64,000 bases of DNA from Algoriphagus halophilus (GTDB lineage: Bacteria > Bacteroidota > Bacteroidia > Cytophagales > Cyclobacteriaceae): assembly GCF_900129785.1 (NCBI RefSeq), contig NZ_FSRC01000001.1, forward strand, positions 1,612,001-1,676,000, given 5' to 3'. The translations under genes were made by a program, and so were the position numbers. The stretch's first letter is position 1, and every line of letters starts with the position of its first letter. Below, piece after piece: positions 12,988 to 30,499 of this stretch. A model generated the notes under the pieces. That model did not search any database and had not been told where the DNA came from. It was given only the letters and a program-made list of their open reading frames with translations.

Positions 12988-15900
12988 TTAAGCAACACCC
13001 ATTCGTTTCTTGATTTCCGCTTCTATTAATGCAGAAAGTTTACGTATGGTATCCTGTTCAAAAAAGTCTTGAATGGATATTTCCAGGTTTAGCCTTTTGC
13101 TCAAAAGAGAAACGATCCGAATCGCTGATAGGGAATTTCCACCCAATGGAATAAAGGAATCTGTCACATCAATACTGTCCATTTTTAATACCGAACACCA
13201 AGTTCCATGTACAAGCTCCTCAATTTTATTTTTAGGTTTTATAATAGCTTGGTTCTTTGTAGGAGTACTTTTAGTCTGACTTCTTAATAATGCCTGTTTA
13301 TCTACTTTTCCATTGGAGGTGAGAGGGAAGGAGTCAACTTGGATAAAAGTAGATGGAATCATGTTCGTTGGAAGAAAAGACTTCAGGTAGTCCATCAATT
13401 CAGTTTTGTCTACCTGAGAAGAAGCTTTGAAGTAGGCCCTGATTTCTTTTGAATGAATGGTCTGTTCCTGCATGCCGATTTCATGCATGAGTTTTGTAAT
13501 TTCCTCAGTACTGAGCTCATCATTTAACTCATCTATGGTTTCCTCTCGCTTTTTATGACCAACGCGCACATCCCAGCTATATGGAAATGCATAGTTGTGG
13601 TATCCTTTTTTTCGCTTGTGAACAAAAATTCCCAAATCATTTATGATGCAATTGGTGCTTCGGCCAGTATCCTTAGGTCTTCTCCATCCAATTTTTTCTT
13701 CCAGATAAGCATACATTTCCGAAAGGCTTACATCACTGAATCTATAAAAATCAACAAAGGAGACCTTGGTAAATACTTCGTCTGTTTCAAACATCGATAC
13801 ATCCAAATACTCACTCACAGCATCTTTGCTTCTGTGATAGGATTTTCGAGTCTCTAGGATGATTTGATCTATATCCGCTGGATCAAAGTGATCTTTTAAG
13901 AAAAGTTCTTCAGTCAACCTTGTTTCAAAAAATTGTCCTCTTGAAAGACCTGTCACAATCACTGGAATATTTTTTTCGAGGGCTAGTTTAGTGCTGAGGG
14001 TGTAAACAGTTTTAAAACAGCCATTACACACGTTTTGATGTCTTTCTAAACTATCTCTGAAAATGGCGTTCATGGCATCTGTACTACCATATATATGATC
14101 AACCCCAAGTTTATTTACCGTATTATTGATATTCTCTTTGGCATTTTCAGATATAAACCCATTGTCAAGTGTCCAAGCCAGCACATGAAGTCCAAGTTCT
14201 ACCAATTTAGCCAACGCATAACTACTGTCTTTTCCTCCACTTAATAGCATCAGACAATCGTATTCTTTTTCTTTGTTTTCTCCCAAACCTAAAATCTCCG
14301 ATTTCAGGTTATCCATGGATTTAAAGTAGGAGGCCACATTTTTCTGATATTCTTCAAAGGATTCACACAAATTGCAGACTCCTTCTTCATTAAAGGAAGC
14401 ATCAGGATAATTAGATGGAATCCCACAATTCTTACAGTAAAAATCAGGTGCTTGATATAAATTCTCATTTGAATCAGCGACGACGATATGTGCTTCCTCC
14501 ATTTTAGGGAATTTGGAAATCAATATCTCCAATTCAGCTGATTCTATCCTAACACCATTCAATTTTATCTGTTCATCTATCCTACCATAATATTCGAGTA
14601 TACCTGAGGCATTCAAACGAACCAGATCACCGGTTTTATAAATCCTTTGATCTAACTGATATGGATTCTTAATAAAGGATTCGGCTGTGCGCTGGGGATT
14701 ATTAAAATATCCTTTGGCAAGTACTTCCCCTCCCAGAAATAAGGTTCCCTTAACGCCCTGCGGAACCGGGTTTAATTTCTCATCCAAAATGTAATAATTA
14801 CATCCCGAGATAGGTTTTCCTATAGGAACTGAAGGTGCTGTTTCTTTCGGATCATATTTGTGGACAATGCAGCCTACCGTCGCTTCTGTAGGACCATATT
14901 CATTAATTATTTCTGCTCCTTCCGGTAGTAGTTTTTGGAAGCTGGAAGCGAGTTTAGTTTCAAGATTCTCCCCTCCAAAAATCACAGTATTGAGCGTCGA
15001 ACCTTTCAAGGAAGTTTCCTGGATTATTCTCGCATGGGAGGGGGTAAGTTTAATGGTGTTTATACTTCTGTTCTTAATAACCTCCAAAATAGATACGTCA
15101 GGACCACTTTTCTTTTCTGGAAAAATATGGATGGATCCTCCAGAAATCAATGGTAGAAATAGGGATGTAATGGTCAAATCAAAACCTATGGAAGTAAAGA
15201 AAGGCATATGTACTTCCTGACCTCTGCTGTATAAATTTTTTGCCTCTGTTAAATAATTTGCCAAAGAACTGACCGAAACTTCAACACCTTTTGGTTTTCC
15301 TGTAGATCCGGAAGTGAAAAGAATATACCCGGTTCGATTTGGATCATGTGATAAGTCTATAACTTGGTTCTTAAGTTCATAAGAAAGAAGATCATCTAGC
15401 TTGATATCCATTACTGAATAGGATTCAAATTCTAGCGAAGTACTAATTAGTAACCTAGGGTTCAAATCTGCCAAAATTCCTTCCATTCTTCTTTGTGGAA
15501 GATCCACAGGCATAGGGACAAATATGGCTCCAAGCCTTAAAATAGAAAGAACAGAGATGATATATTCGAAGGATCTTTCTTTGTGTACAACCACAATGTC
15601 CTGTTCCTTAACTCCCTGGTGATTAAGTATTTCTACGGCCTTATTTACCAATGACCTTAGTTCTTGGTAAGAAAGGGTTTTATCTCCCAATAGTAAAGCT
15701 GGTTCATTTGAATTCCATTCAAAAACAGGTTTGATAAGCTCATCAAAAGTTATCGGATTACCCTTATCACTTATATCCTTTTCGATTAGCTCCTTTTCCT
15801 CCTTATCTGAAACAAGTTTTACCTCCGCGATTTTTGATTGGTCATCTATGATAAAAGCCCGAATCATTTTTTCAAAGTGGAAGGGGAGAAGTTCTATTTG

Positions 15901-17136
15901 TTTTGGTGTAAAATAGGCTTCATTGATATCGATATAATAATCAAGGTTGGATTGATCATTAAAATCGAAGGCCTGAAATCGAATTCGATGACCTGCGTCC
16001 ATCTGCCCTGGAAAAAGCCATTTAGTTCTGGTCGGAATTTCCCCAAAATCACCAAAATAAAGGGGGATGTAATTTACTACTGTTTGAATTCCTCTAACGC
16101 TCTCTAAAGTTTGGGCACCAGGATAGCCATTTTTAAAAAAATCGAAGAGCTCTTGCCTTACTTTCCCAAAAAGACTCAGAAAGGAGTCTTCCATGTCTAC
16201 CTGAATATCAACGGGCAATACCTCAATGAGCAGGCCTGCGGTGTTTTTGAATTTACTGAGGTTACGGTTGGGAAAGGGACTTCCTAGCCGTAAGGCAGAT
16301 TCGCCTGAAATTCTGGAGATAAAGGCAGCAAAAATAGTAGACCAAATCGTGAATTTTGTAAGGTCAGGATTGAAGGATCTATAGGCTTCTGTAGTTAGCT
16401 TTTCCTCTAAAAGCCCTTTGATTTCTGTACTTATAGGGATTTTTACCCTTCTGGCCTTGGTTCGGGTTTCAGATTTAAGATTTCCATAAAAGGATAACTC
16501 CTTAACGGGAAATTGTCCCTTTGACTTCCAATATTCAGCAGCAGAGGTATTTTTGTTTTCTCGTTTTTGCTGCTCAAACTCCCGATAAACGTTAAAACTG
16601 ACTTGACTTCCGGAATCATTTTCAATTTTCTTTAATTCCGATTCATAGCCCTTCCCTAATGCCTCAAACAGAACTTTAAAGGTCGTTGCATCAGCAAGTA
16701 TGTGGTGAATATTCAAATACCAAATAAACACTCCCTCTTCTACTTTTAGTAGAATGGAATCGAAGCATCTCTGAGTAAGGTCTATTGGAGTATGAATTCG
16801 AGATTTGATGAAAGAATCAAGCGATGCATTGGAAATCTTTTCAAACGGAAGATTAAATTCTAATTGGGGTAATACAATTTGTTCAACAACTGAATCCTCA
16901 TTTTCATGAAAAACTGTTCTCAGGCAATCATGATTTGCAATTAGGCGTTTAAATGCTAATTGAAAAGTATAGGGATCTATTTCACCATTTAATTCAAATG
17001 TATGGGGAAGGTAGTTTGAATTGGAGCTAGGATCGAGCTTTTGACTAGCCCAAATACTTTGCTGACTTCCAGTAAGGCTGGAAATAGAGTCTGGTGATAC
17101 TTGCAATCTTTTTCTATTTTTTCTGCTGCTGGGCAA
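12988..17136 (-). CDS. NRPS, C - A (interrupted by PP-loop ATPase) - PCP
   Basis: A 1382-residue synthetase. The condensation domain is at about 20-440 (HHILADA at 144-150). The adenylation domain starts near 465: A3 TSGSTGKPKG (608-617), A5 NEYGPTE (745-751), A7 YKTGDLVR (833-840), A8 GRIDEQIKLNGVRIE (851-865). After about 30 more residues the domain is broken by a foreign module (about 897-1215). This has CKNC and CNLC zinc-ribbon-like pairs (901-924), SGGKDS (966-971), CNGC (1037-1040) and PYSWDVRVGHK (1185-1195), the layout of WbpG/PseA-type PP-loop amidotransferases. Adenylation resumes with A9 FLPTNMIP and A10 NGKVDK (1275-1280). The PCP has its Ser at 1335 in LGGNSLSAI. Aligned to GrsA the specificity residues read D-L-T-K-I-G-E-V-G, near the asparagine code. 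Its start overlaps the carrier gene by 23 bases. Confidence 0.95.
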   Translation of the reverse strand: MPSSRKNRKRLQVSPDSISSLTGSQQSIWASQKLDPSSNSNYLPHTFELNGEIDPYTFQLAFKRLIANHDCLRTVFHENEDSVVEQIVLPQLEFNLPFEKISNASLDSFIKSRIHTPIDLTQRCFDSILLKVEEGVFIWYLNIHHILADATTFKVLFEALGKGYESELKKIENDSGSQVSFNVYREFEQQKRENKNTSAAEYWKSKGQFPVKELSFYGNLKSETRTKARRVKIPISTEIKGLLEEKLTTEAYRSFNPDLTKFTIWSTIFAAFISRISGESALRLGSPFPNRNLSKFKNTAGLLIEVLPVDIQVDMEDSFLSLFGKVRQELFDFFKNGYPGAQTLESVRGIQTVVNYIPLYFGDFGEIPTRTKWLFPGQMDAGHRIRFQAFDFNDQSNLDYYIDINEAYFTPKQIELLPFHFEKMIRAFIIDDQSKIAEVKLVSDKEEKELIEKDISDKGNPITFDELIKPVFEWNSNEPALLLGDKTLSYQELRSLVNKAVEILNHQGVKEQDIVVVHKERSFEYIISVLSILRLGAIFVPMPVDLPQRRMEGILADLNPRLLISTSLEFESYSVMDIKLDDLLSYELKNQVIDLSHDPNRTGYILFTSGSTGKPKGVEVSVSSLANYLTEAKNLYSRGQEVHMPFFTSIGFDLTITSLFLPLISGGSIHIFPEKKSGPDVSILEVIKNRSINTIKLTPSHARIIQETSLKGSTLNTVIFGGENLETKLASSFQKLLPEGAEIINEYGPTEATVGCIVHKYDPKETAPSVPIGKPISGCNYYILDEKLNPVPQGVKGTLFLGGEVLAKGYFNNPQRTAESFIKNPYQLDQRIYKTGDLVRLNASGILEYYGRIDEQIKLNGVRIESAELEILISKFPKMEEAHIVVADSNENLYQAPDFYCKNCGIPSNYPDASFNEEGVCNLCESFEEYQKNVASYFKSMDNLKSEILGLGENKEKEYDCLMLLSGGKDSSYALAKLVELGLHVLAWTLDNGFISENAKENINNTVNKLGVDHIYGSTDAMNAIFRDSLERHQNVCNGCFKTVYTLSTKLALEKNIPVIVTGLSRGQFFETRLTEELFLKDHFDPADIDQIILETRKSYHRSKDAVSEYLDVSMFETDEVFTKVSFVDFYRFSDVSLSEMYAYLEEKIGWRRPKDTGRSTNCIINDLGIFVHKRKKGYHNYAFPYSWDVRVGHKKREETIDELNDELSTEEITKLMHEIGMQEQTIHSKEIRAYFKASSQVDKTELMDYLKSFLPTNMIPSTFIQVDSFPLTSNGKVDKQALLRSQTKSTPTKNQAIIKPKNKIEELVHGTWCSVLKMDSIDVTDSFIPLGGNSLSAIRIVSLLSKRLNLEISIQDFFEQDTIRKLSALIEAEIKKRMGVA

Positions 17137-17341
17137 TATATTCTGTAATGGAAAGGACTGAATTAAAATTTTCTATCACCATATCCTGAGGTGGTACTTT
17201 AATTTTATACCTCTCTTCCAAATGGGCAATGAGTTTCATAATCGTAATGCTATCAATCAAACCACTGCTCAATAGTTCTTCTTCTTGGTTGACAAGTACA
17301 TCGATTTCCTCATGTATATAATTTGTAATTTCTTCTACCAT
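17114..17341 (-). CDS. Free-standing acyl/peptidyl carrier protein
   Basis: A 75-residue acidic protein with the carrier fold: ELLSSGLIDSITIMKLIAHLEE places the phosphopantetheine Ser after Asp in GLIDSI (near 32), followed by the usual helix II. It overlaps the dioxygenase stop by one base and the synthetase start by 23 bases, so it is translationally coupled to both. It probably carries the amino acid loaded by the free-standing adenylation enzyme while it is oxidised, then donates it to the N-terminal condensation domain of the C-A-PCP synthetase. The Sfp-type transferase at the other end of the cluster should activate it. Confidence 0.9.
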   Translation of the reverse strand: MVEEITNYIHEEIDVLVNQEEELLSSGLIDSITIMKLIAHLEERYKIKVPPQDMVIENFNSVLSITEYIAQQQKK

Positions 17342-18114
17342 TACTTTGGATTTAAGGCTGTGTGGTTCCTTTTGACCATATATTCAGGTCTTGGATCTGA
17401 AACTTCTTTAATATTATCAGTTGGGTTGAACGTGAACATTAATAGCTTTCTGTCAATTACTCCCATGTTTTGATAAGAGCTATGGAGTAAATTACAATGG
17501 AAAATATGAATGTCTCCTGCATTTCCGGTAAATGGAATTATGGGACTGTATTTTTTCACCATTTCCGATAAGGTACTTTGAGTAATCATATATTTCAGAT
17601 TCTCATCATGTACTCCATCAGGATTATTCAGGTACGATTCCACTTCTCCTTCTTTTTGAGAAGAGGGTATAGCTAATATGGGGCCATTTGCTACCTCTAC
17701 ATCGGATAGCAAAATTGCAACCGTCAGAGCATTTGGAGCAATCATTCCATCCTCTTTCCAAAATTTAAAATCTTGATGCCAACTCCATACACCTGATTCA
17801 AGGCTACTTTTAGTGTTAAGTTTTGACTGAAATAAGTAAAAATCTGTATTCAAAAGCTGCTCAATAATTTTCGGTAATGAGGAATTCTCAAGTAGTGCAA
17901 GAATAGAAGAATCGAACTTTTCAGGCGCAAAAATGGTACGGATTTTTCCAGAGGATTTTTCTCTGAAAAATTCAGGTCCGTCCAGTTGTTCAATTTTTTC
18001 AATTGCCTGAATGATCTGATCCAATTCTTTTCCCTTCAGCCAATTACTTATCTGTAAATAGCCTTGTTGATGATATGTATTGATTTGCTCTTGATTAAGC
18101 ATAGTTTCTATCAC
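17341..18114 (-). CDS. PhyH-type Fe(II)/2-oxoglutarate dioxygenase
   Basis: A 257-residue enzyme of the phytanoyl-CoA dioxygenase family. It has an N-terminal INTYHQQGYLQI helix. The iron-binding triad is SWHQDFKFW (H-x-D, near residues 118-120) and GDIHIFHCNLLHSS (distal His near 209), followed by a DRKLLMFTFNP strand that carries the 2-oxoglutarate Arg. Relatives in peptide pathways (SyrP-like, ectoine hydroxylase) hydroxylate amino acids, some on a carrier protein. Gene order between the adenylation enzyme and the carrier suggests it acts on the carrier-bound starter. Chlorination is unlikely because the Asp ligand is present. An alternative start lies four codons on. Confidence 0.9.
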   Translation of the reverse strand: MIETMLNQEQINTYHQQGYLQISNWLKGKELDQIIQAIEKIEQLDGPEFFREKSSGKIRTIFAPEKFDSSILALLENSSLPKIIEQLLNTDFYLFQSKLNTKSSLESGVWSWHQDFKFWKEDGMIAPNALTVAILLSDVEVANGPILAIPSSQKEGEVESYLNNPDGVHDENLKYMITQSTLSEMVKKYSPIIPFTGNAGDIHIFHCNLLHSSYQNMGVIDRKLLMFTFNPTDNIKEVSDPRPEYMVKRNHTALNPK

Positions 18115-18123
18115 TTCTCTATT

Positions 18124-19656
18124 TTAATTAGAAAACTGTTTTTCCAACTTCCGATAATGAACTTTTCCATTGACGGAATGGGGTAGGGATTGTACTTCAA
18201 AGAAGTGTTTTGGAATACTTGTCTTTGGGAGAAGTTTTATTAATCTCTTTCTCAATGAATTATTGTCCAACGGTTTCTCCTTTGGTACGATTGCCGCACA
18301 TAATTCTCTCATGCCATTTGATTTACATGTGAAAACAGCTACATCCTTTACTTCAGGGCATTGAATTAAAACCTGTTCAATAGCTCCAAGTTCAATCCTG
18401 TAGCCATTAATCTTCACTTGACGGTCCATTCTCCCTACAAAAACCAACTCATTATTTTTGTTCAAATAGACATAATCGCCAGTTCTATAATAGTTAACTT
18501 CTTTTCCTTCTTTTCTGTCGATATAAAAAGACTTTTGGTTCAAGGTTTCATTATTCCAATAGCCTGACATCATGGTTACAGAATGAACTAGAAATTCTCC
18601 CTGTTCACCGGGAGCAACTTGCTGGCCTTCCGAATTCAAAATGAGATAGCTGGTATTCTCCCAAACCTGACCTATTGGTACTTCTTTATCTGCTTCTATA
18701 GGCTTTGAAATAGTAAAATAAGTACATTGATTTACTTCGGCAGGCCCATAAACATTTGAAATCTTCGAGTTTGGAGCTTTTTTTAGTAACTCGTTTAATT
18801 TGATAGGCGGAAAGGATTCGCCTCCATATTTTATCCATCTCAACGAAGGAAAATCTAAATCAAATCCTCCTTCAATCAATGAAATGAAGAGGGAAGGGAC
18901 AGAATACAAAATGGTAATTCCATTTGCTCTAACCGCCTCACAAAAACTCCCAAGCATGACTAATTCGCTGGTATTGAAAATATAGGTTGTACAACCGGCA
19001 TACATTGCTGAAAAGTATCCAAAGGTACTTTGATCAAAATGTAAAGAAGCTACATTTCCAATGGTATCATTTTCAGAAACTTCATATAGTAAGGTAGATT
19101 GTCTAGCATAAGCCATTCCGCTTGAATGGGTATGGACAATTCCTTTTGGTTCTCCAGTTGAGCCCGAAGTATACAGGATATAAGCAAGGTCGCTAGGCTC
19201 AATATCTAAATCCAAAGGGGGATTACTTGCTAATTGAAAGATGGTATCCCAAGAAACGCCTTGATGTGATCCTACCACTAGTAAATTTTGGGTATCAATC
19301 TGATCTATAATGCGTTGGTGAGAGGGGATGGTGAGAACTATTTTGATATTACAATCTGCAATAATTGTATTAAGCCTTTCGCTAGGTTGGCTTGGGTCCA
19401 AAGCCACCAAAACAGCTCCCGCTTTTAAGATACCATAGATTGCATAGGCTGTAAACACATTTTTCTCAATTAGAATCCCAACACGGTCTCCTTTTTTTAC
19501 TTGGTTCTCTACAAGCCAATTTGCTAGTTGATTGCTTCTCGATTCTAATTCCTGATAGCTGATCTGGGATTCAGCGCTTTTAAAAGCTATTTTGTTCGGA
19601 GTCTCTTTTGCTCCAATTGCGATGAGTTCACTTAACAGTTGACTAGTAGAATTCAT
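18124..19656 (-). CDS. Free-standing adenylation enzyme, PltF-like amino acid:carrier ligase
   Basis: A 510-residue adenylate-forming enzyme without a fused carrier. Motifs: YILYTSGSTGEPKG (A3, about 161-174), HFDQSTFGYFSA (A4), NVYGPAEVNQCTYF (A5), YYRTGDYVY (A7), GRMDRQVKINGYRIE (A8) and NGKVHYRKL (A10). The A5 form NVYGP-x-E-V-N-x-C-T-Y is typical of prolyl-carrier ligases such as PltF and RedM. The pocket read against GrsA is D-Q-F-Y-K-G-V-Q-C; compared with my recollection of the proline code (D-L-L-Y-L-A-L-V-C) several greasy positions are polar, so a more polar amino acid is possible. It overlaps the acyl-CoA dehydrogenase stop by four bases. Confidence 0.92.
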   Translation of the reverse strand: MNSTSQLLSELIAIGAKETPNKIAFKSAESQISYQELESRSNQLANWLVENQVKKGDRVGILIEKNVFTAYAIYGILKAGAVLVALDPSQPSERLNTIIADCNIKIVLTIPSHQRIIDQIDTQNLLVVGSHQGVSWDTIFQLASNPPLDLDIEPSDLAYILYTSGSTGEPKGIVHTHSSGMAYARQSTLLYEVSENDTIGNVASLHFDQSTFGYFSAMYAGCTTYIFNTSELVMLGSFCEAVRANGITILYSVPSLFISLIEGGFDLDFPSLRWIKYGGESFPPIKLNELLKKAPNSKISNVYGPAEVNQCTYFTISKPIEADKEVPIGQVWENTSYLILNSEGQQVAPGEQGEFLVHSVTMMSGYWNNETLNQKSFYIDRKEGKEVNYYRTGDYVYLNKNNELVFVGRMDRQVKINGYRIELGAIEQVLIQCPEVKDVAVFTCKSNGMRELCAAIVPKEKPLDNNSLRKRLIKLLPKTSIPKHFFEVQSLPHSVNGKVHYRKLEKQFSN

Positions 19657-20798
19657 AGTAATCCATCCAATTTAGCAATAATATTCCTTTGAATATCTGA
19701 TGTACCAGAGTATATCAATCCTCCCAATCCATCTCGAAGATCACGTTCTACTTCATATTCTGTAACCACTCCTTTGGCCCCAAAAATTCTAATGAAATCC
19801 AGACTGGATTCTACAAAAGCTTCACTGATGTATAGTTTAGCCATGGCAGCTTCCCGAATTAAAGGCAAATCATTTTTATCCAAATAAGCGACTTTATAAA
19901 GATGCATTTTTGAGGTTTCAAGCCTCAATCTCATATTGGCAATTCGGTTGGAAATGGATTGATATTTACCAATGCTTTGCCCAAATGATTTGCGTTCGTT
20001 GGCGTAAGCAATTGATAATTCCAATTGCTTTTCCATTCTTCCTATTTGGCTCGCAAAAATATAACCCCGCTCTGATTCCATGGCCGAACTAAAGAGGCTT
20101 AATCCTGAGCCTTCTCTTCCCAATCGGTTTTCATCCGGAACAAAACAGTTTTTTAAATAGAGATTTCCCATCGGTGTGGTTCGCATTCCTACTTTATCCC
20201 GAACCTCACTACTAGTGAAGCCCTCCATGGTTTTGTCCACAATGAAAGCCGTAATACCCCACTTGCCTAACTTTACATTGGTGGTAGCAAAAACAACTGC
20301 TATTTCACAAATAGGGGCCAAGGTGATGTAATGCTTTTCCCCATTTAGGATATATCCGCCCTCCACTTTCTCAGCAGTCATTTCCAGGGCATAGGTATCG
20401 GAACCTGAGCCTTCCTCGGTTATTCCAAAAGCTCCAATCGTACCTGAAATCAATCTTGTCAAATACTTTTGCTTTTGTTCCTCTGTTCCAAATGCATTGA
20501 TTGCTACCTGGGTGCTCCAAATTTGGGAATTGAGAGAAAAGGGTAGACCATTGTCTTTACTTCCATAGCCTAGTCCTTCGAGCATTAACACCGTGGTAAG
20601 AGGATCAAAACCACCTCCTCCGTATTCCTTTTTAAAAGGCCAACCCAACACTCCAAAATCGGCACATTTCTTCCACTCTTCCTCCGGAAATATATTGTTA
20701 CGGTCTTTTTGAGAAATATCTTTATTCAGATTTTTCTCTGAGAAAACCTTGGCTTTCTCCCTTAATTCTATTTGTTCTTTGCTCCAGCTAAAATCCAT
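19653..20798 (-). CDS. Acyl-CoA dehydrogenase-family flavoenzyme, PltE/RedW-like role
   Basis: A 381-residue FAD enzyme of the acyl-CoA dehydrogenase fold: N-terminal helices, GAFGITEEGSGSDTYAL (flavin and substrate loop, about 122-138), GQSIGKYQSISNRIANM (about 266), and YSGTSDIQRNIIAKL at the C-terminus. In medium-chain enzymes the last motif is YEGT with the catalytic Glu; here Ser replaces it, so the base must lie elsewhere, as in isovaleryl-CoA dehydrogenase. Next to a free-standing adenylation enzyme and a carrier, it most likely desaturates a carrier-bound aminoacyl group. Prolyl to pyrrolyl conversion is the best-known precedent. Confidence 0.9.
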   Translation of the reverse strand: MDFSWSKEQIELREKAKVFSEKNLNKDISQKDRNNIFPEEEWKKCADFGVLGWPFKKEYGGGGFDPLTTVLMLEGLGYGSKDNGLPFSLNSQIWSTQVAINAFGTEEQKQKYLTRLISGTIGAFGITEEGSGSDTYALEMTAEKVEGGYILNGEKHYITLAPICEIAVVFATTNVKLGKWGITAFIVDKTMEGFTSSEVRDKVGMRTTPMGNLYLKNCFVPDENRLGREGSGLSLFSSAMESERGYIFASQIGRMEKQLELSIAYANERKSFGQSIGKYQSISNRIANMRLRLETSKMHLYKVAYLDKNDLPLIREAAMAKLYISEAFVESSLDFIRIFGAKGVVTEYEVERDLRDGLGGLIYSGTSDIQRNIIAKLDGLL

Positions 20799-20802
20799 TT
20801 AA

Positions 20803-23043
20803 TTAAAATGTGAATTTCACAAAACCTCTAAAATTGAATGGAGTACCAGGAGTAAAATGAATTTCATTAACCGGACTTGGTTCGAGGTTTCCATTTGCAA
20901 GTCGTATTCTAGATTCTGTATCAAATTGAGTTTCTTTCCAATCTGTATTAAGCAGGTTTTCTATGAAAAAACCAAACGTGAATGCATTGAAAGTATAGCT
21001 AGCGTTCATATCCAATACGGTATAACCTTCTGCGACAACACTATTGTCTTCATTAGCAGGACGATCCTGTAAATATCTGGCTCGTAGGGCTCCTGCAAAA
21101 CCATCCTTTTCAAAACTCAATCCTCCTGTGGTAGTAATTCTTGGTGCCAATGGGATGAAATTATTTCCTTCAGGGTCATCTATGCTTCTAGCATAAGAAT
21201 AGGTAAAATCGCCATCAAAGTAGATCCATTTGTTTGCTTGCCATCGTAATCCCAAGTCTATTCCTCTTCTTGCTGTTCTTCCACTCGCTTCCACTATGCC
21301 GGCATCACCTACATAAACAAATTCCTGTTCAAGCCTTAAATACCAAAGCGCCCCATTTACTATCAATCTTGGCCATAACTTAAAGTTACCCCCTAAATCA
21401 GCCCCAAATGCTCTGGGAAGTATGGATTCATTATTAGGCCTTTCCAATACCAAACGAGTGTCGTTTGAGTGAAAGCCAATGCCAGATTTTAAAAATACTT
21501 GTACGTCTTCATTGACCGTATAAATGAAGTTAAGTTTCGGACTTACTACGGCAGCTGATAAAGATTGGGGATCATATTCAGGAGTGAGATCATCTTGGTA
21601 TAAATAATTAAAATAATCAACTCTAACTCCTGGGTTGATCCGTAGCTTTTTCAAGTAAAGATCAAAATTTACATAACTGTAATAATTCGACTCAGTAATG
21701 TCACCTCTTTGAGTGACAAACCGAACACTATCTCTGTTTTTTGTTCCGGCTAATTCATTATCACGGATATCATCATTTCTAAGTCCTACACCAACTTGAA
21801 GTGCATATTCACCCCCACTGAATGTATTGCTATAAGTAAGCTGACTTTCTGCTCCAAAAATCGCCCGGTTTTCGCGCTGTCGGATTTGATCACCATTTAC
21901 AGAATCTTCCAAGAAGAATGTAAAGTTTGAAAATAGCTCAAAATCATAAGTAGAATAGTAGGCGTTGTTCTTAATAAATAATCGATCATTAATTAGCTTG
22001 GTATGATTGAGAGCAATGTTTGTTCTACTCGTATAACCTCCCTCTGTATCATCTAAAGCTCCAAAATTGGTGATCTGTCCACTTTGTACCGCACGAACCG
22101 GTATCTGACCTGAAGCATCCCACTTACTGGTAAAATGTGATGCAATTAAGCTGATATCACTTCCGTCTTCCAATGTTAGACCATATCGCCCCATTAGGTT
22201 TAATCGGTTGAAATTCTGACTGGACTCAAATGGACCATCACTTGCCAAGTATTCTGCCGCGACATAGGCATTGTTTTTCTTGTCATTGATTAGGTTAAAA
22301 AGCCCAACCGTACGGACACTGTTGAAGCTTCCTCCTTGTACCGAAACAGAACTTTTATCCAAACCTCTTTTGGTTTGGAAGTTTACGTAGCCTGCAGTAG
22401 CAAAATTCCCTTTATCGGCATTATAGGGGCCTTTGTCAAAATCTACTCGCTCCACTGTTTCCGGTATTAAGAAGTGTAGATCTGAATATCCTTGCCCGTG
22501 CGCATGTGAAACCATGTTGACCGGCATTCCATCGACCGTGATATTTATATCAGTTCCATGGTCAATATCAAATCCACGCAAGAAAATTTGTTCAGCTTTA
22601 CCACCTCCGGCATGTTGTCCTATAAATAACCCAGGTACTTTTCTCAATATATCCTGAGATGTGTTTACCGGATTTGTTTTAAGATCAATTCGGGAAAGGG
22701 TATTAACTGGATTCACTTCTTGACTAAAGACTACCTCTCCAAGTTCAATAGCGGTTTCATCCATCCGCACAGTAACCTCTCTTGAAAGATTACTTACTAC
22801 TATTATCTGAGGTTCGTATCCTATATGACTTACTTGAAGGGAATCTCCATCTTTAACTCCCGGGAGCACAAAATAACCAGATTCGTTGGTGTGAGCGTGA
22901 TGTTCAGAGGCAATATGAATAATATAGGCTCCGATTATTGGGGAACTTGCTCGGTCTAAAACTCGGCCTTTAAGCGCTTGGGCGTTTACAAAAATTACTG
23001 TAAAAGTAAATAGGACAACGGTGGAGAGTACTATTTTAATCAT
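20803..23043 (-). CDS. TonB-dependent outer-membrane receptor
   Basis: A 746-residue receptor. Signal peptide 1-21; carboxypeptidase-regulatory-like beta domain (about 22-100, LKGRVLDRASSPIIGAYI); plug (about 110-230, LRGFDIDHGTDINITVDGMPVN); 22-strand-type barrel to the terminal aromatic residue (KFTF). His-rich stretches stand out: SEHHAHTNESG in the first domain and MVSHAHGQGYSDLHF in the plug, possibly metal-related. It lies inside the peptide operon, four bases before the acyl-CoA dehydrogenase and downstream of the cyclodeaminase-like gene. The likely role is uptake of the metal-loaded peptide product. No FecR/sigma pair is nearby. Confidence 0.95.
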   Translation of the reverse strand: MIKIVLSTVVLFTFTVIFVNAQALKGRVLDRASSPIIGAYIIHIASEHHAHTNESGYFVLPGVKDGDSLQVSHIGYEPQIIVVSNLSREVTVRMDETAIELGEVVFSQEVNPVNTLSRIDLKTNPVNTSQDILRKVPGLFIGQHAGGGKAEQIFLRGFDIDHGTDINITVDGMPVNMVSHAHGQGYSDLHFLIPETVERVDFDKGPYNADKGNFATAGYVNFQTKRGLDKSSVSVQGGSFNSVRTVGLFNLINDKKNNAYVAAEYLASDGPFESSQNFNRLNLMGRYGLTLEDGSDISLIASHFTSKWDASGQIPVRAVQSGQITNFGALDDTEGGYTSRTNIALNHTKLINDRLFIKNNAYYSTYDFELFSNFTFFLEDSVNGDQIRQRENRAIFGAESQLTYSNTFSGGEYALQVGVGLRNDDIRDNELAGTKNRDSVRFVTQRGDITESNYYSYVNFDLYLKKLRINPGVRVDYFNYLYQDDLTPEYDPQSLSAAVVSPKLNFIYTVNEDVQVFLKSGIGFHSNDTRLVLERPNNESILPRAFGADLGGNFKLWPRLIVNGALWYLRLEQEFVYVGDAGIVEASGRTARRGIDLGLRWQANKWIYFDGDFTYSYARSIDDPEGNNFIPLAPRITTTGGLSFEKDGFAGALRARYLQDRPANEDNSVVAEGYTVLDMNASYTFNAFTFGFFIENLLNTDWKETQFDTESRIRLANGNLEPSPVNEIHFTPGTPFNFRGFVKFTF

Positions 23044-23170: not shown

Positions 23171-24244
23171 CTATTGAGCTACATTAATTAGATGATGAAT
23201 CATTCCATATGGATTTTTTTCATCGGAACTGTAAGACTCAATATTCATTTTGGTTCCTAGGTTTAATTCATGGGCATATTTGGCAAATAAATTTGCCACC
23301 ACCTGGTCCTCCAATGCCCATCCTGTGGAATCAAATATGCTAATTCCAGATTGGTACTTTTCTATCAAAACTTGATTATGGATTAATTCAATCCAAGAGG
23401 GACCAATATCAGAGGGTTCCAATTGCTGACATTCGCCTTCGACAACTGCTTGATCGAGAAAATCAGGACAAACAAAAGATTTCTTCAAAAGTGACTTTGG
23501 GAGTTCAAACTTTCCTGGGAAATCCGCTCCCACAGCATTAATATGAAGGTGTGGTTTTGAATTAAACTCTATAAAAAGTGGGCCTTTTTCTGGAGCTATA
23601 GAGGTAGCAGTGCACACAATATCCGATTTTTCCAAAATTTCAGAAATGCTAGAGAGTTTAGGTGAGATTCTGAGATTGATGGGAGCCAGTCGATCTTCTA
23701 AGCTATGCATGCAGCTTTGATCGGTATCATATATTAAAATCTCCTCAATTGGAAACAATCTGGAAATAGCGTGAATCTGGGTGATCGATTGAGCTCCACA
23801 TCCAATAATGCCAAGTGTCTTTGAATTTTGATTTGCCATCATTTTACTGGCAACTGCACTAGAGGCACCAGTTCGCAAAGCTGTAAGCAAAACACCGTCT
23901 ACTAAAAAATTTAAATGACCCGTGTGAGCATCATAGGAAGAAATAGTAGATAATATAGTAGGCAGTTTAAAAATGTCTGGGTTTTCAGGATGATACCCCA
24001 CCACTTTAATCAAAACTTCTTCCCCTTTCTTCATGATTGGCATCCATTCTACTAAACCTAAAAAGGGTTTTTTATAATTAAATCCTGATCGAATGGGTAC
24101 TTCAGTTTCTTCTTCACTGTAATTTTTAAGTGATTTTTCTAATTCAGAAATCAGGTCATCCATTACTCTGTCTAACCCAATTTTTGTTATAATCTTATTG
24201 ACAGCATTACTGTCTATGATGATACTTTCTTGATTTTTCTTCAT
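23171..24244 (-). CDS. Ornithine cyclodeaminase/mu-crystallin family enzyme
   Basis: A 357-residue NAD-dependent enzyme. LTALRTGASSAVASKMMA (about 127-144) and LGIIGCGAQSITQIHAI (about 151-167) form the substrate and Rossmann sites. NAVGADFPGKFEL (about 233-245) keeps the Asp that is catalytic in ornithine cyclodeaminase. Members make proline from ornithine, or build or break N-carboxyalkyl amino acids (SbnB-type). As first gene of the minus-strand peptide operon it probably supplies a building block. Proline from ornithine would fit a pyrrole-forming trio, but the product cannot be fixed from sequence. Confidence 0.88.
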   Translation of the reverse strand: MKKNQESIIIDSNAVNKIITKIGLDRVMDDLISELEKSLKNYSEEETEVPIRSGFNYKKPFLGLVEWMPIMKKGEEVLIKVVGYHPENPDIFKLPTILSTISSYDAHTGHLNFLVDGVLLTALRTGASSAVASKMMANQNSKTLGIIGCGAQSITQIHAISRLFPIEEILIYDTDQSCMHSLEDRLAPINLRISPKLSSISEILEKSDIVCTATSIAPEKGPLFIEFNSKPHLHINAVGADFPGKFELPKSLLKKSFVCPDFLDQAVVEGECQQLEPSDIGPSWIELIHNQVLIEKYQSGISIFDSTGWALEDQVVANLFAKYAHELNLGTKMNIESYSSDEKNPYGMIHHLINVAQ

Positions 24245-24329
24245 TATTTAAGTTAATCAATACCCAATATACTATTTTGAATTAAGGTGTCAATTCATTT
24301 TTTTGCCTATCTAAATGCACAAGTTTGAT

Positions 24330-24348
24330 AACTTTTAAATTAAAAGTT
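24330..24348. promoter_or_regulatory. Palindrome in the divergent promoter of the peptide cluster
   Basis: AACTTTTAA, one base, TTAAAAGTT: a perfect 9-1-9 inverted repeat in the gap of about 140 bases between the two divergent operons. Its position suits an operator that could control both, for example for a metal-responsive repressor. AT-richness makes chance dyads easier. Confidence 0.4.
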
Positions 24349-24384
24349 TGTTTAACCCAAATAATCCTTAATTCTCTTCGATAC

Positions 24385-25614
24385 ATGTCAACAACCAAAT
24401 TAATCAGAACAAGTTTTTTATTCTTTCTATTATTTACACTAGCTGCTAGGGTAGAGGCCCATAAACCCAATCAAAATTTTATTTATCTAAGTATTTACGA
24501 AGGTAAAATGGATTGTAGGGTTGAGCTGAGGAAAAGCGATATCGCAAAAGTATTTGGTTTTGAAATCGGACCAGGAGTAGTTCCTGATGAGAATGACCCA
24601 AAAGTTCTAAGGATGCGGGAATACATACTCAGTCACCTCAAATTTACATCTTCCCAAGGAGATCATGCTATGGTTTTCACAGACTTAGGTTTGTTGGAAT
24701 TAAAAGACGGTGATGATTACCTGTTATTTAATTTTTCGATGGAAAATATGAATCCTGTTCCTTCCAATTTAGATGTTTATGATCAGATTTTTGTAGAAGA
24801 GTTGAGCAATCATGAATCATTACTTCATATTGAGCGAAACTGGAAAACGGGTGTGTTAGCCAATGAATCTTTGCCATCTTTAATCTTTGGTACTTCCTCT
24901 CCAAATCAAACTCTTGATATTGAGGAAGGATCAGTTCTAACTGGTTTTTTGGCAATGGTAAAATCCGGGATTTACCATATTTGGATCGGATTGGACCATA
25001 TCTTGTTTTTGATAGCCCTACTGATTCCCTCGGTGATTGTATATAAACCAAAAAATGCTCCTAAAAAGAAATGGTTTGGGATCACTTACAATGATTTTGA
25101 TCCTCAGCCAAGTTTTAAGACTGCTTTTATATCTGTAGTAAAAATCATTACAATTTTTACTCTTGCTCATTCTGTGACTTTAAGCTTAGCAGCTTTAGAA
25201 TTGATCAACCTACCTTCAAGGTTAGTGGAATCCATTATTGCCATTTCCATTGCCATGGCGGCTTTTCATAATATCGTCCCATTTTTAAATAAAAGAGAGT
25301 GGCTTATTATTTTAGTATTTGGTCTCTTTCATGGATTTGGATTTGCTTCGGTTTTGGCGGAACAATCAAGAGGAGGGGAGTACCTGGTCTATTCATTGGT
25401 TGGATTCAACCTGGGTGTAGAGATTGGTCAGTTGGGTATTATTGTTGTTGCTTTTCCTCTGCTTTTCTTACTTAGTAGACTGAAACAATACTATATCATC
25501 GTGGTCGGTTTCTCCCTTTTATTGATGGCCATATCGGCTTATTGGATCATCGAAAGAGCCTTTGGATATGATTTGAAACTTCATACTTGGTTGCTCGAAA
25601 AAGGAATCCTTTAG
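24385..25614 (+). CDS. HupE/UreJ-type membrane protein with periplasmic N-domain
   Basis: A 409-residue protein when started at 24385, which gives a good signal peptide (MSTTKLIRTSFLFFLLF, cleavage near VEA-HKP); the frame opens 20 codons earlier. Residues about 25-190 form a periplasmic beta-rich domain and about 195-400 hold six to seven membrane helices. HIWIGLDH matches the HupE/UreJ signature H-x5-D-H, with FTLAHSVTLS, FHNIVPF and LFHGFGFAS adding membrane His residues. HupE and UreJ proteins move or handle nickel/cobalt. It heads the plus-strand operon, 11 bases before the second synthetase. I infer metal handling linked to the peptide; which metal is unknown. Confidence 0.85.
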   Translation: MSTTKLIRTSFLFFLLFTLAARVEAHKPNQNFIYLSIYEGKMDCRVELRKSDIAKVFGFEIGPGVVPDENDPKVLRMREYILSHLKFTSSQGDHAMVFTDLGLLELKDGDDYLLFNFSMENMNPVPSNLDVYDQIFVEELSNHESLLHIERNWKTGVLANESLPSLIFGTSSPNQTLDIEEGSVLTGFLAMVKSGIYHIWIGLDHILFLIALLIPSVIVYKPKNAPKKKWFGITYNDFDPQPSFKTAFISVVKIITIFTLAHSVTLSLAALELINLPSRLVESIIAISIAMAAFHNIVPFLNKREWLIILVFGLFHGFGFASVLAEQSRGGEYLVYSLVGFNLGVEIGQLGIIVVAFPLLFLLSRLKQYYIIVVGFSLLLMAISAYWIIERAFGYDLKLHTWLLEKGIL

Positions 25615-25625
25615 TAGATTAGAGT

Positions 25626-28600
25626 ATGGAAGGAAATTCGGATGATCTTCTTGATCAGTGGCTTAATTTTAACGAGCAGGAGCAGGGATCTGAAAATTTA
25701 GCAGAGGAACGAATTCCAAAAGCTAGCCTATCAGATCACTATCCACTTTCAGTCGCTCAACAGCGCCTTTGGTTCGTCTATCAAAAGAATCCTGAAAGTC
25801 CTGTATATAATTATTCAGAGATCTGGAATTTTCATGGATCCTCTTTTGATCAGGGAGTTTTTAGTAAAGCCCTGGAAAGTTTAGTTGCCAAGCATCAGAT
25901 TTTAGCAAGCAATTATGTTGTATTCCAAGAGGAGCCTGTGATGGTTTTTCGACGGGGAAAAAGTTTTGATCTTCATTTTGCAAAGGATAATCAGGACGAA
26001 TCGGATGCCAGAAACTGGCTTAAAAATCTGGCTAGTGAAGCTTTTAGGCTAGAAACAGATCCTTTGATTCGAGTGGGAGTTTGCCACCTCAATGACCAAT
26101 ATTTGATAGGCATTACCTTCCATCACATTATTATCGATGCCTGGTCCATGGGCATATTGAGAGAAGATTTTGCTGATTTCTATGTTGAGATTTCCAATAA
26201 TAATCAACAATCAAACTTCTCGGTACCTGAAAATGATCTTCAATATCAGGATTATACGTCCTGGCAAAGAGAATTGCCTGAATCAGAGTCCAAATCCAAG
26301 TCAATTCCTACGCCTTCGGACTCATTTTTAGATCTGCCGCTGGACTTTCCAAGGCCGGCCAGTCCAAGTTACCAAGGCAGTATCATCCGGTTTTCCCTGC
26401 CAAAAAATTTCACTGATAAAGTAGGGAAGCTCGTCAAAGATTTTCAAACTACGGACTTTAACCTTTTCCTTGCATGCTTTCAGATTTTGCTTGGTAGGTA
26501 TGCAAAAAGTGAACAGGTAACAGTAGGAATACCAGTGTTCAATCGAGATAAAGAAGAGTTTAAATCCATGGTTGGGTATTTTGTAGATACCCAGGTAATT
26601 GAAGCAAGCCTGGAAAAGCAGAAATTGTTTTCCGAGCTGCTTAAAGAAATCAAAAATGATGTTTTGGCGGCCATATCTACCCAAAAACCGAGCTATGAGG
26701 AACTGGTTAGTAATTCACAAACAGCAAAAGATCAAAGCTACAATCCTTTATTTCAAGCCATGTTTGTGGGACATTCCGCAGGAGAGAATCCATTTCAAAA
26801 CCATGGTCTATCGGTAGATTTTGAAGTGTTGGATTTAGAAGTCTCCAAATTTGATCTGACGCTACATCATTTTGGTCTAAAAGCTGGTGCATATCAAATT
26901 GGAATAGAAATTAGTAGGGATTTATTCAGTCCTGTTTTTGCAGAACGCTTGTGCCAACATTTTACAACGCTGTTGGAGGGTGTTTGCGAGAATCCTAACC
27001 TGGAAATAGAGTCTTATTCCCTGATTTCTGAAGAAGAGAACCAATTTCTGGTTTCTGGACTTAGTCATGGTTTTTTACCAGAAGGTAATGGAACTGTGCT
27101 CACTGAGATCCTAGATAGTTTAATCCAAAAAAAGGATCAGATTGCCGTGGTTTGCGGCTCTGAACGACTAAGTTATGGAGAACTTGATCTAAAAAGCCAA
27201 GTAATTGCTTATGAGCTAGGAGAGAAATCTGCTGATCCAAACTATCCCATAGGAATCTTTATGGAAAGGTCTGTGGATTATTTGGTTTCTATTCTTGCCA
27301 TCTTAAGATTTGGTGGGGTCTATTTGCCTTTAGACCCGGATTATCCAGACCAAAGAACGCTCCAATACCTAAAAGAATCCGGAGCAAATTTTGTCCTGAC
27401 TCACCGTAATTGTATTGATTCAAAAGACTCTGTCAAAGATAATTTTGAAATAATAAATATTGATTTAATAGAATACAATCAAAGTATTGAAAATCAGGTA
27501 AATAAGGGTTTTAAATTTAGTAATAATGCCTACCTGATATTTACCTCTGGGAGTACCAATAAACCCAAGGGTGTTTTGGTTAGCCATAACAACTTATACT
27601 CTTCTGTGGCAGCAAGAAAGTCGTATTACCAGGAATCTCCCACCTCATTCTTGTTGGCTTCCTCTTTTTCTTTTGACAGCTCAGTTGCCGGAATCTTTTG
27701 GTCTTTATGCACAGGAGGTAAACTCATCATTACGCAACAAAATGAAACCTTGGACACTGCTGCACTTTCTGCAATCATTGCTCGAGAAGATGTCAGCCAT
27801 ACCTTGATGCTGCCTTCGCTGTATCAAGCCTTGCTGCAGGAAAATGACAGAACTTGGGATGCACTGAAGGGAGTGATTTTGGCTGGAGAGGAATTTCCAA
27901 ATGATTTGATAAAAATGCACTTTGAAAAGCATCCAACAACACGGCTTTTTAATGAATATGGTCCAACGGAAGGAACGGTTTGGTGTACGGTTCAGGAACT
28001 TCATGCTGGAGATTCTTTTCATAGGGTTCCTATAGGTTTGGCAACATCGAATACCTTGGCTTATGTACTGGATTCAAATCAGAAATTAAGTCCCATCGGA
28101 ATTCCGGGAGAACTTTGCATTGCAGGGGCGGGGCTTACGAATGGGTATTTATCCGAGGAAGATACTGCATCTAAGTTTTTGAAAAACCCATATTCCGAGG
28201 AATGGAATAGGGTTTATAGGACTGGAGACTTGGTTCGAATCCAGAAGGATGGATTGTTGGAATACCTTGGAAGAGAGGATAATCAAGTTAAAATCCGAGG
28301 ACATCGAGTGGAATTGACCGAGATTCAAGATTTAGCTCTACGTGATCCAAAAGTTAAATCTGCATTAGCAATTGTTGGGGGAGCATCTGATACCCAAATA
28401 ATCGTGGCCATTAAATCGGATGCCAATATAAATGAGGGGGAATTAGATGGTTTTTTCCGTCAAAATTTGCCACGATACATGGTGCCGGATATAATTCTCA
28501 TTTTGAAGGAATTTCCTTTGCTTCCAAATGGAAAAGTGGATTTGAATGCATTAAATGACATTGCCATTGCTAAACCAAACGCTTCAACCGTTTCTTCAAA

Positions 28601-29825
28601 AATACCATCTACGTATTTGGAACGGCAGGTTGCTGGAATTTGGGCTGATGTAATGGGAGAGGAGGAAGTTCCTGTCAATAAAGATTTTTACGAGATGGGT
28701 GGAAATTCACTCCAAAGTATTCGAATCATCGCAAGATGCAGAGACATTGGGATAAAGGTTACTCCAGCTCAATTTTTACGCTATTCCACAGTGGAATCGC
28801 TGGTGAAGTCTATCCATCATGAAGCCTATCAGAGACCCGAAAACACGCTTGAATTGGAGGTTTTAAAGGTTTGGGAAACCTTTCTCAAACAAAAATTGAT
28901 TGGGGTGAAGGACAGTTTCCAAAAAAATGGAGGATCCGATTTTGAGTGGAAGCAGGTGGAAAATGAGTTAAATTCCATTTTTACATTTAAGGATCCAATC
29001 CATATAAATGACTCAATTCAAGATATTTCAAAGAAAATTCTTGCTAATAATCATTTAGTTGAATTTGAGTCAATAAATATTAGAAGGGTCATTCCTATAA
29101 AAACAACCGGTCAAAAATCGCCTCTATTTTGTATTCATAGCGAATTCTATTATGAAACAGTGTATAGTCAATTGACTAGGCATATGCCTGCCGAGTATCC
29201 GGTTTACGGTATATTATCGGTAAGTCCTGAATTGATCAAGAATTCCGTCCCAAGGAATATTGAAGAGATCGCCAGTTTGTGTTTGGAAGAAATCCGATTG
29301 ATTCAACCCAAAGGACCTTACCGAATTTTATCCTATTCTATCGGGAATGTAGTTGCCTTCGAGATTGCTAAACAAATGCTAGAGGCAGGGGAGCAGGTAA
29401 ATCTGATCATGATTGATCCGCCGCTGTTTTTTGATAAATCCAGGACATTTGGAAAAGGAGGTTATAAAAAGCTATTTACCTATTTGGACTACTGGAAGAA
29501 TCCGGGGCAATTGCTGGAAAAAGTTCGTAAAAAGGTAAGAAAAGATCCTAAACCTCCTGTATTGATTCAAGATACAGGCTTATTGAAAAAGTATTTACTC
29601 TCTTATAAGCCTGAAAAAATAGCCTGTGATACCTTACTTATAACCACACCCAGGGAATTTAAACATACTTATGAATGGGATCCCTTATTGAATATCGTGG
29701 ATCGTGAGAAAATTCAAGGACCACATCTTAAATTGATGCGAGAACCTTATGCGGGCCAACTAAATGAGGCAATTGTACGGAATCTCAAAAAATGGGATGA
29801 AGAAAAGAAAACGATGGATTCATGA
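25626..29825 (+). CDS. NRPS, C - A - PCP - degenerate PCP - thioesterase
   Basis: A 1399-residue terminating synthetase. Condensation domain about 37-460 (HHIIIDAW from 166). Adenylation about 490-975: A3 TSGSTNKPKG, A4 FDSSVAGIFW, A5 NEYGPTEGT, A8 GREDNQVKIRGHRVE, A10 NGKVD. Pocket residues against GrsA read D-S-A-M-I-A-E-V-W, which I cannot assign. The first carrier is intact (GGNSLQ, Ser 1028). A second carrier-like segment (about 1075-1140) has GGSDF where GGxS is needed, so it lacks the Ser at the usual position. The thioesterase (about 1160-1390) has nucleophile SYSIG (Ser 1238), Asp 1264 in MIDPP and His 1367 in GPHLKLMREP. It probably adds the last residue and releases the product. 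Confidence 0.95.
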   Translation: MEGNSDDLLDQWLNFNEQEQGSENLAEERIPKASLSDHYPLSVAQQRLWFVYQKNPESPVYNYSEIWNFHGSSFDQGVFSKALESLVAKHQILASNYVVFQEEPVMVFRRGKSFDLHFAKDNQDESDARNWLKNLASEAFRLETDPLIRVGVCHLNDQYLIGITFHHIIIDAWSMGILREDFADFYVEISNNNQQSNFSVPENDLQYQDYTSWQRELPESESKSKSIPTPSDSFLDLPLDFPRPASPSYQGSIIRFSLPKNFTDKVGKLVKDFQTTDFNLFLACFQILLGRYAKSEQVTVGIPVFNRDKEEFKSMVGYFVDTQVIEASLEKQKLFSELLKEIKNDVLAAISTQKPSYEELVSNSQTAKDQSYNPLFQAMFVGHSAGENPFQNHGLSVDFEVLDLEVSKFDLTLHHFGLKAGAYQIGIEISRDLFSPVFAERLCQHFTTLLEGVCENPNLEIESYSLISEEENQFLVSGLSHGFLPEGNGTVLTEILDSLIQKKDQIAVVCGSERLSYGELDLKSQVIAYELGEKSADPNYPIGIFMERSVDYLVSILAILRFGGVYLPLDPDYPDQRTLQYLKESGANFVLTHRNCIDSKDSVKDNFEIINIDLIEYNQSIENQVNKGFKFSNNAYLIFTSGSTNKPKGVLVSHNNLYSSVAARKSYYQESPTSFLLASSFSFDSSVAGIFWSLCTGGKLIITQQNETLDTAALSAIIAREDVSHTLMLPSLYQALLQENDRTWDALKGVILAGEEFPNDLIKMHFEKHPTTRLFNEYGPTEGTVWCTVQELHAGDSFHRVPIGLATSNTLAYVLDSNQKLSPIGIPGELCIAGAGLTNGYLSEEDTASKFLKNPYSEEWNRVYRTGDLVRIQKDGLLEYLGREDNQVKIRGHRVELTEIQDLALRDPKVKSALAIVGGASDTQIIVAIKSDANINEGELDGFFRQNLPRYMVPDIILILKEFPLLPNGKVDLNALNDIAIAKPNASTVSSKIPSTYLERQVAGIWADVMGEEEVPVNKDFYEMGGNSLQSIRIIARCRDIGIKVTPAQFLRYSTVESLVKSIHHEAYQRPENTLELEVLKVWETFLKQKLIGVKDSFQKNGGSDFEWKQVENELNSIFTFKDPIHINDSIQDISKKILANNHLVEFESINIRRVIPIKTTGQKSPLFCIHSEFYYETVYSQLTRHMPAEYPVYGILSVSPELIKNSVPRNIEEIASLCLEEIRLIQPKGPYRILSYSIGNVVAFEIAKQMLEAGEQVNLIMIDPPLFFDKSRTFGKGGYKKLFTYLDYWKNPGQLLEKVRKKVRKDPKPPVLIQDTGLLKKYLLSYKPEKIACDTLLITTPREFKHTYEWDPLLNIVDREKIQGPHLKLMREPYAGQLNEAIVRNLKKWDEEKKTMDS

Positions 29826-30499
29826 AAGTTGATTTATGGCTTGCCAAACTGGATGAGGTGCCCGAAGAGGATGGGAGGGATCTTGCAAGAGAAGAAATGG
29901 AGCGTGCAGATCGTTTTGTTCGGCCTGAGTTAAAAATGCGGTTCCTCAAACGAAGAAGCATTTTGAGAAAATTACTATCCGAGTATCTTGACATAAAACC
30001 TAATGAAATAGTTATTAATCAAACGATTCTTGGAAAGCCATATGTAGAAAATCCTAAAGCTCAAATTTTTTTTAACATATCACATTCCAAAGACTGCGTG
30101 CTGTATGGTTTCTCGAATGAATCAGAAGTTGGTGTAGATATAGAATTCTTGGATGAGGAGATTGAAGCAGAGCTCATCTCAAACCATTTTTTTGCTTCTG
30201 AGGAAATCTCATTGATTCAAAATTCCAAGGGCAAATTAAAATCCGAAGCTTTTTTCAGGTTATGGTGTATCAAGGAGGCATACATCAAATTAGTTGGGAA
30301 AGGTTTGACATTTCCACTAGATCAAGTGTTGGTAAAAGATACCATGGAGAAACCAAGGCTGGAGATTCCGGCAGTTACCAATGATCAACCATTTGAATCG
30401 TTGAGCTGTATTTATAGCAATTGGCTTCCCAATTTTGGAATTGGGGTGGTGGTACAGGGAAACCACTTGGAAATAGAGTATAAGCAGTACAGAGGCTAA
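29822..30499 (+). CDS. Sfp-type 4'-phosphopantetheinyl transferase
   Basis: A 225-residue enzyme that moves phosphopantetheine from CoA to carrier serines. Motifs: FNISHSKDCVLYG (about 80), GVDIEFLDEE (about 103-112, Mg-binding Asp/Glu) and FFRLWCIKEAYIKLVGKGL (about 143-161, with the W-x-x-K-E-A motif). It overlaps the stop of the second synthetase by four bases, so it is the coupled activator of the three or four carrier domains in this cluster. Confidence 0.95.
   Translation: MKVDLWLAKLDEVPEEDGRDLAREEMERADRFVRPELKMRFLKRRSILRKLLSEYLDIKPNEIVINQTILGKPYVENPKAQIFFNISHSKDCVLYGFSNESEVGVDIEFLDEEIEAELISNHFFASEEISLIQNSKGKLKSEAFFRLWCIKEAYIKLVGKGLTFPLDQVLVKDTMEKPRLEIPAVTNDQPFESLSCIYSNWLPNFGIGVVVQGNHLEIEYKQYRG

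Follow-up and report, generated by a model that had tools for sequence, protein, structure and literature searches.

An adenylation (A) domain interrupted by an AMDH-like PP-loop domain is encoded in a 64,000-nucleotide stretch of the Algoriphagus halophilus genome (contig NZ_FSRC01000001.1, positions 1,612,001 to 1,676,000; hereafter the window). The host protein is a nonribosomal peptide synthetase (NRPS) composed of condensation (C), A and carrier (T) domains, and the insert of some 320 to 330 residues splits the A domain between its core motifs A8 and A9. From sequence comparisons, we consider it probable that the insert is an aminomutase/amide dehydratase (AMDH): at the expense of ATP, it would dehydrate the side-chain amide of Asn on the same enzyme to beta-cyano-alanine. 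A broader proposal, which we put forward tentatively, is that AMDH domains are [4Fe-4S] PP-loop enzymes in which a cluster with one free iron site acts together with ATP to dehydrate or isomerize carrier-bound Asn. In a gene cluster of Bacteroidota, cyanobacteria and Proteobacteria, they would supply the central residue of a metallophore, apparently not described before, that consists of a proline-derived acyl group, a modified Asn and His.

Residue numbers given here are counted from the TTG codon at 17136, i.e., over 1382 residues. The TTG at 17106 is the more likely start codon, because it comes shortly after the stop codon of the overlapping gene for the carrier protein and because the resulting 1372 residues are the length of most of the close relatives listed. 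Orthologous open reading frames (ORFs) span 1367 to 1377 residues in a search of 58 genomes, the window's own included. The Pfam AMP-binding match covers residues 476-810, and the A10 motif NGK follows the insert, at residue 1275. Pfam, TIGR03573, motifs and the predicted structure, in which the insert separates two strands of the small A subdomain, bore out the original prediction that a PP-loop domain some 320 residues long lies between A8 and A9; its C-terminal limit, estimated at residue 1221 to 1225, falls slightly beyond the end first assigned. The expected motifs CKNC (residue 901), CNLC (921), SGGKDS, CNGC and YSWDVRVGHK (1186) were all found in the domain, and SGGKDS belongs to a PP-loop fold whose best match was the N-acetyl sugar amidotransferase LpNASAT (8WEX). 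TIGR03573, the family of such amidotransferases, was indeed the best family, matching residues 899-1217 (E 6.5e-40) with both of its hallmarks, the tetracysteine zinc motif and SGGXDS, but the score of 142.2 bits remained below the curated cut-off of 203.2.

Could two genes have been joined by an assembly error, or could the architecture be an inactive relic? Both can be set aside with near certainty. There is no assembly join at the insert, because the domain is intact in orthologues: full-length ones at 58 to 74% identity occur in three other genomes of the 58, and a fourth is cut by a contig end. Flanking gene order is the same in the three complete orthologous loci. When protein databases were queried with the insert, 1890 of 4699 candidates were hits, and all of the 120 listed, to which our counts from this search refer, contain an AMP-binding domain. 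A GTDB scan yielded 316 stretches, 294 of them confirmed, from which 80 were kept as named loci. A single ORF encodes the whole series, from the C domain and A core through the insert and the small A subdomain to the T domain, in 71 of these 80; contig ends truncate five of the others, and the remaining four have no C domain. The motifs of the insert are also nearly invariant. Within the phylum the embedded form is scattered, not universal: judged by score and open-frame length, it is present in 2/395 genomes of a spread sample, the window's own included, and 63 of the 65 matching genomes show the stand-alone form alone.

By its specificity code, read at positions taken from PheA numbering, the host A domain is Asn-type, which supports the residue originally thought to be activated. 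The ten-letter code DLTKIGEVGK is exact in 105 of 121 proteins (the window and its 120 listed relatives), and the pattern DL[TS]K.GE[VI]G is found in all 121. Among the 81 rows made up of the window and the 80 loci, 77 show such a code in full, and in the remaining four it is truncated. DLTKIGEVGK is the published code of a cyano-Ala domain found only in albicidin (PMC12283262). This specificity-code literature led to AMDH, which lowered the probability of both an amidine and a thioamide product.

The claim that no adenylation domain with such a module had been described did not survive, as CysH (cystobactamid) and AlbIV (albicidin), of two antibiotic pathways, carry one, named AMDH (PMC7966384; alb04 is described likewise in PMC8949500). 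In PMC7966384, the AMDH products formed from carrier-bound Asn are beta-cyano-Ala, a nitrile, or iso-Asn; Asn-loaded CysH gives a mass 18 lower in a manner dependent on the inserted domain, and deletion of AMDH abolishes the cyano-Ala and iso-Asn products. The two inserts are 69% identical, their homologues all lie within Asn-type A domains, SGGKD is conserved, and CysH is dark brown. The authors report neither a structural template nor a radical-SAM type motif, link the homologues to no known product and call the mechanism unknown. The published AMDH is an AANH-like domain of ~38 kDa, or 342 residues, and thus resembles the insert described here in size, in its SGGKD motif and in its location in an Asn-type A domain. 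The CysH and AlbIV modules, however, are stand-alone A-AMDH-T units that supply an assembly line in trans, whereas the window encodes a full C-A-T elongation module. A tailoring domain is likewise placed between A8 and A9 in TioS AMA4 (5wmm), but there it is a methyltransferase.

In the proposed reaction, the host A domain would load L-Asn onto the T domain of the same enzyme, the PP-loop domain would adenylate the amide oxygen, and loss of AMP would give the nitrile. Should the PhyH-type oxygenase encoded next to the carrier protein hydroxylate Asn first, the insert may isomerize it to iso-Asn, as CysH does after CysJ; by analogy with CysJ, the oxygenase could thus make iso-Asn, and not the nitrile, the product. 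The substrate taken over by the upstream C domain would be a proline-derived (pyrroline or pyrrole) acyl group, delivered by the 75-residue carrier protein; the partner NRPS would incorporate His and liberate a short peptide, the predicted metallophore.

Three cysteines of the insert, C1037, C1040 and C1163, likely hold a [4Fe-4S] cluster, which would be located at the active site. The full triad is present in 237 of 240 listed proteins from two relative listings; of the three exceptions, two stop short of C1163, and in one C1040 is replaced by Ser. It is also present in all 81 rows of the loci set plus window, which is not independent evidence since one of the GTDB scan patterns itself held CxxC. 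Thermotoga LarE holds its cluster through three cysteines (PMC9283937), CtaC carries C154, C157 and C284 and needs its Fe-S cluster (PMC6772006), and the zinc site of 8WEX provides the reference for the tetracysteine (PMC10607449). As a control, 27 rows of stand-alone amidotransferase-like relatives in the phylum were analyzed (26 distinct genes, L022 and L058 being one place), 7 of 34 loci having been dropped for length or a missing motif. The triad was found in three rows and was absent from 24. Because stand-alone proteins can also have it, the triad only suggests a cluster and does not fix the product; it had first been taken as a sign of sulfur transfer, a reading dropped after this control. 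A [4Fe-4S]-type triad could explain why CysH is brown, and the fold together with the nearly invariant CxxC...C triad offers a testable account of both the color and the mechanism of AMDH. The stand-alone proteins (see L037, L038 and L041) are of two sorts, with CWHC and a third Cys or with neither, and the triad may mark a functional split among them.

A thioamide synthetase, in which the triad-bound [4Fe-4S] cluster would pass sulfide to the adenylated Asn amide as in CtaC, is an unlikely alternative, which stays a rival because the triad is common to CtaC. The CxxC...C arrangement with an ATP site is as in CtaC (PMC6772006), and the second and third cysteines are 123 positions apart here and 127 in CtaC. 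The PDB sequence closest to the insert is 8cnz (E 6.1e-7), titled mmLarE-[4Fe-4S]. In 11 of 16 structure-match rows titled 'LarE, a sulfur transferase', an offset of 91 at the range ends would put C1163 opposite LarE Cys176, a placement that derives from range ends and not from residue pairs; Cys176 is the sulfur donor of LarE (PMC9283937). CtaC, TtuA, NcsA and LarE share the PP-loop fold with a CxxC...C triad, and the substrate of CtaC is carrier-bound. CtaC is nevertheless a stand-alone protein making a thioamide, whereas the reported domains of the AMDH kind give a nitrile or iso-Asn. No sulfur-donor gene was recognized in the window's cluster; the closthioamide cluster (PMC6772006) also encodes none.

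It is quite doubtful that the insert is a WbpG-like amidine synthetase, in which ammonia would replace the Asn amide oxygen, possibly followed by cyclization onto the carbonyl of the upstream acyl group, which would yield an aminopyrimidine beside His. The profile and fold matches argue for it, since the insert shares the fold, SGGKDS and the tetracysteine with the NASAT family (TIGR03573; WbpG, WbuX, LpNASAT), and so does the succession of Asn and His, which resembles the metal site of bleomycin. The TIGR03573 score is nonetheless below the family cut-off, and NASAT proteins are stand-alone and mostly lack the triad (24/27 rows). Stand-alone sugar amidotransferases use a HisH-type glutaminase as ammonia partner. 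HisH (TIGR01855) was sought in 20 genomes, 15 with a stand-alone gene, picked from the matches of phylum scans, and five with the embedded domain: all 15 have a HisH paralogue scoring above cut-off no more than ~3.4 kb from the stand-alone gene, and none was found near the embedded domain in the five. This disfavors ammonia-dependent amidine formation. The on-line change of an amide on the activated residue, as first proposed, was thus upheld, the amidine was not, and the thioamide is retained as a lesser rival of the AMDH reaction.

The host gene belongs to a larger cluster (Table 1). Gene counts for it in the 80 loci were obtained by tblastn, with misses and cut flanks included; for the stand-alone carrier the ORF count (54/80) is used, because the tblastn count of 70/80 may include NRPS T domains. 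The A domain of the partner NRPS matches DSALIAEVWK, a His code (PMC12283262). Among 42 partner A domains including that of the window, 40 codes are complete and all read DSAL[IMV]AEVW, the other two being cut; further variants are DSATIAEVW in locus L121 and DSACIAEVW in L141. The two modules are encoded on opposite strands in the window, as in a Thermoanaerobaculia bin (L108). Their order, Asn then His, was deduced from loci in which both are in line. In the cyanobacterial loci L103, L111, L121 and L130, the Asn module precedes the His module on the same strand, along with genes for HupE, the dehydrogenase, the stand-alone A domain and the cyclodeaminase; a gammaproteobacterial locus (L135) has the same set without the cyclodeaminase, and on a Roseovarius plasmid one NRPS holds both modules, the Asn module first. 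With a His code coming after the Asn code, the range of products is reduced to short peptides that contain His.

Table 1. Features of the interrupted NRPS and of its gene cluster (window positions; counts as defined in the text)
Feature	Position	Strand	Basis
NRPS, C-A(interrupted)-T, 1372 aa from TTG 17106 (1382 aa if TTG 17136)	12988..17106	-	ORF 12988-17136, domain profiles, orthologue lengths
Carrier (T) domain, residues 1307-1370	13027..13218	-	Pfam PF00550, E 9.4e-14
Remainder of small A subdomain with A9 and A10, residues 1226-1290	13267..13461	-	
Inserted PP-loop domain, AMDH-like, residues 897-1225	13462..14448	-	
C1163, third cysteine of predicted triad	13648..13650	-	238/240 proteins; other two records stop before that place
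C1037xxC1040 (CNGC), first two cysteines of predicted [4Fe-4S] triad	14017..14028	-	239/240 proteins
PP-loop SGGKDS, residues 966-971, ATP site	14224..14241	-	Motif
Tetracysteine C901, C904, C921, C924, likely zinc site	14365..14436	-	Invariant in 121/121 and 81/81; matches 8WEX zinc site by motif
Adenylation domain to A8, residues 476-884, code DLTKIGEVG(K): Asn / beta-cyano-Ala	14485..15711	-	Profiles; code assignment PMC12283262
Condensation domain, residues 19-449	15790..17082	-	Pfam PF00668, E 2.5e-48
Stand-alone carrier protein, 75 aa, predicted starter carrier	17114..17341	-	PF00550, E 4.8e-8; such an ORF in 54/80 loci
PhyH-type oxygenase; possible CysJ counterpart or proline hydroxylase	17341..18114	-	PF05721; TIGR02408 110.8 bits, below cut-off; 5/80 loci
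Stand-alone A domain, predicted proline loading onto carrier	18124..19656	-	Profiles; 54/80 loci
Prolyl-carrier dehydrogenase homologue	19653..20798	-	PDB 4irn prolyl-ACP dehydrogenase, 391 bits; NCBIfam PigA 375 bits, below cut-off 500; 39/80 loci
TonB-dependent receptor	20803..23043	-	PF07715; 59/80 loci
Amino-acid cyclodeaminase homologue	23171..24244	-	PDB lysine cyclodeaminase 277 bits, ornithine cyclodeaminase 123 bits; 28/80 loci
HupE/UreJ_2 membrane protein	24325..25614	+	PF13795, E 1.3e-44; 54/80 loci
Partner NRPS, C-A-T-thioesterase, A code DSALIAEVW: His	25626..29825	+	Profiles; code assignment PMC12283262
Phosphopantetheinyl transferase	29822..30499	+	PF01648

These features suggest that the product is a peptide of a proline-derived acyl group, a modified Asn and His that would act as a metallophore, because of its predicted make-up, the TonB receptor in Bacteroidota and the HupE-type protein in many clusters; the last two neighbors point to metal uptake. 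No description of this gene cluster was found in the literature searched, which covered few subscription papers, and within that literature both the recurring Asn-His cluster and the fold and triad of a domain whose mechanism was unexplained look new. Probably more than one product family uses the insert domain, because four Microvirga and Mesorhizobium loci differ: they encode a shorter A-insert-T protein without C, and of the counted cluster genes only the dehydrogenase recurs there, a phosphopantetheinyl transferase also being present.

Several points weigh against an AMDH that builds part of a metallophore. The best family and the best fold match are both those of a sugar amidotransferase, and the triad also occurs in CtaC, a thioamide synthetase, and in the three stand-alone rows mentioned above. 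The nitrile could be a shunt product that arises for want of another nucleophile. The case for homology to AMDH is built from features described in the literature rather than from an aligned CysH sequence. As regards the peptide, a His-code A domain was found in just 39/80 loci within the fetched flanks, and no TonB gene was found in the fetched flanks of the 15 loci that belong to neither Bacteroidota nor Balneolaceae. Doubt also attaches to the prolyl starter: in PDB the cyclodeaminase is closest to lysine cyclodeaminase, and the codes of the stand-alone A domains vary. The best NCBIfam model for the cyclodeaminase homologue is that of ornithine cyclodeaminase (182.6 bits, below the cut-off of 350).

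The PhyH gene occurs, among the 80 loci, only in L061-L065 (Algoriphagus, Cyclobacterium and one uncultured member of the Cyclobacteriaceae). A His-rich protein of ~155 residues (e.g., L068 4956-5390) is encoded in 38/80 loci, adjoining the TonB receptor in 37; it gave nothing above the Pfam cut-off, and the ORFs of L061-L065, close relatives of the window, do not include it. The PP-loop searches also matched proteins of 607 to 680 residues in L026, L053, L056 and L057. That of L026 has MCGIFG near its start, as in class II glutaminases, and an ammonia donor and a PP-loop domain may be fused there. A Streptomyces plasmid (L142, 8202-14894) encodes a homologue of the insert (39.6% identity) next to a gene for a racemase, with an asparagine synthase gene at a distance of one gene, and is a different cluster using the domain. 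In the window, the cluster is adjoined by genes for two DGQHR/DndB-like proteins (31669-32751, plus strand, and 32735-35152, minus strand) and for a Dam-type DNA methyltransferase (35064-35885, minus strand).
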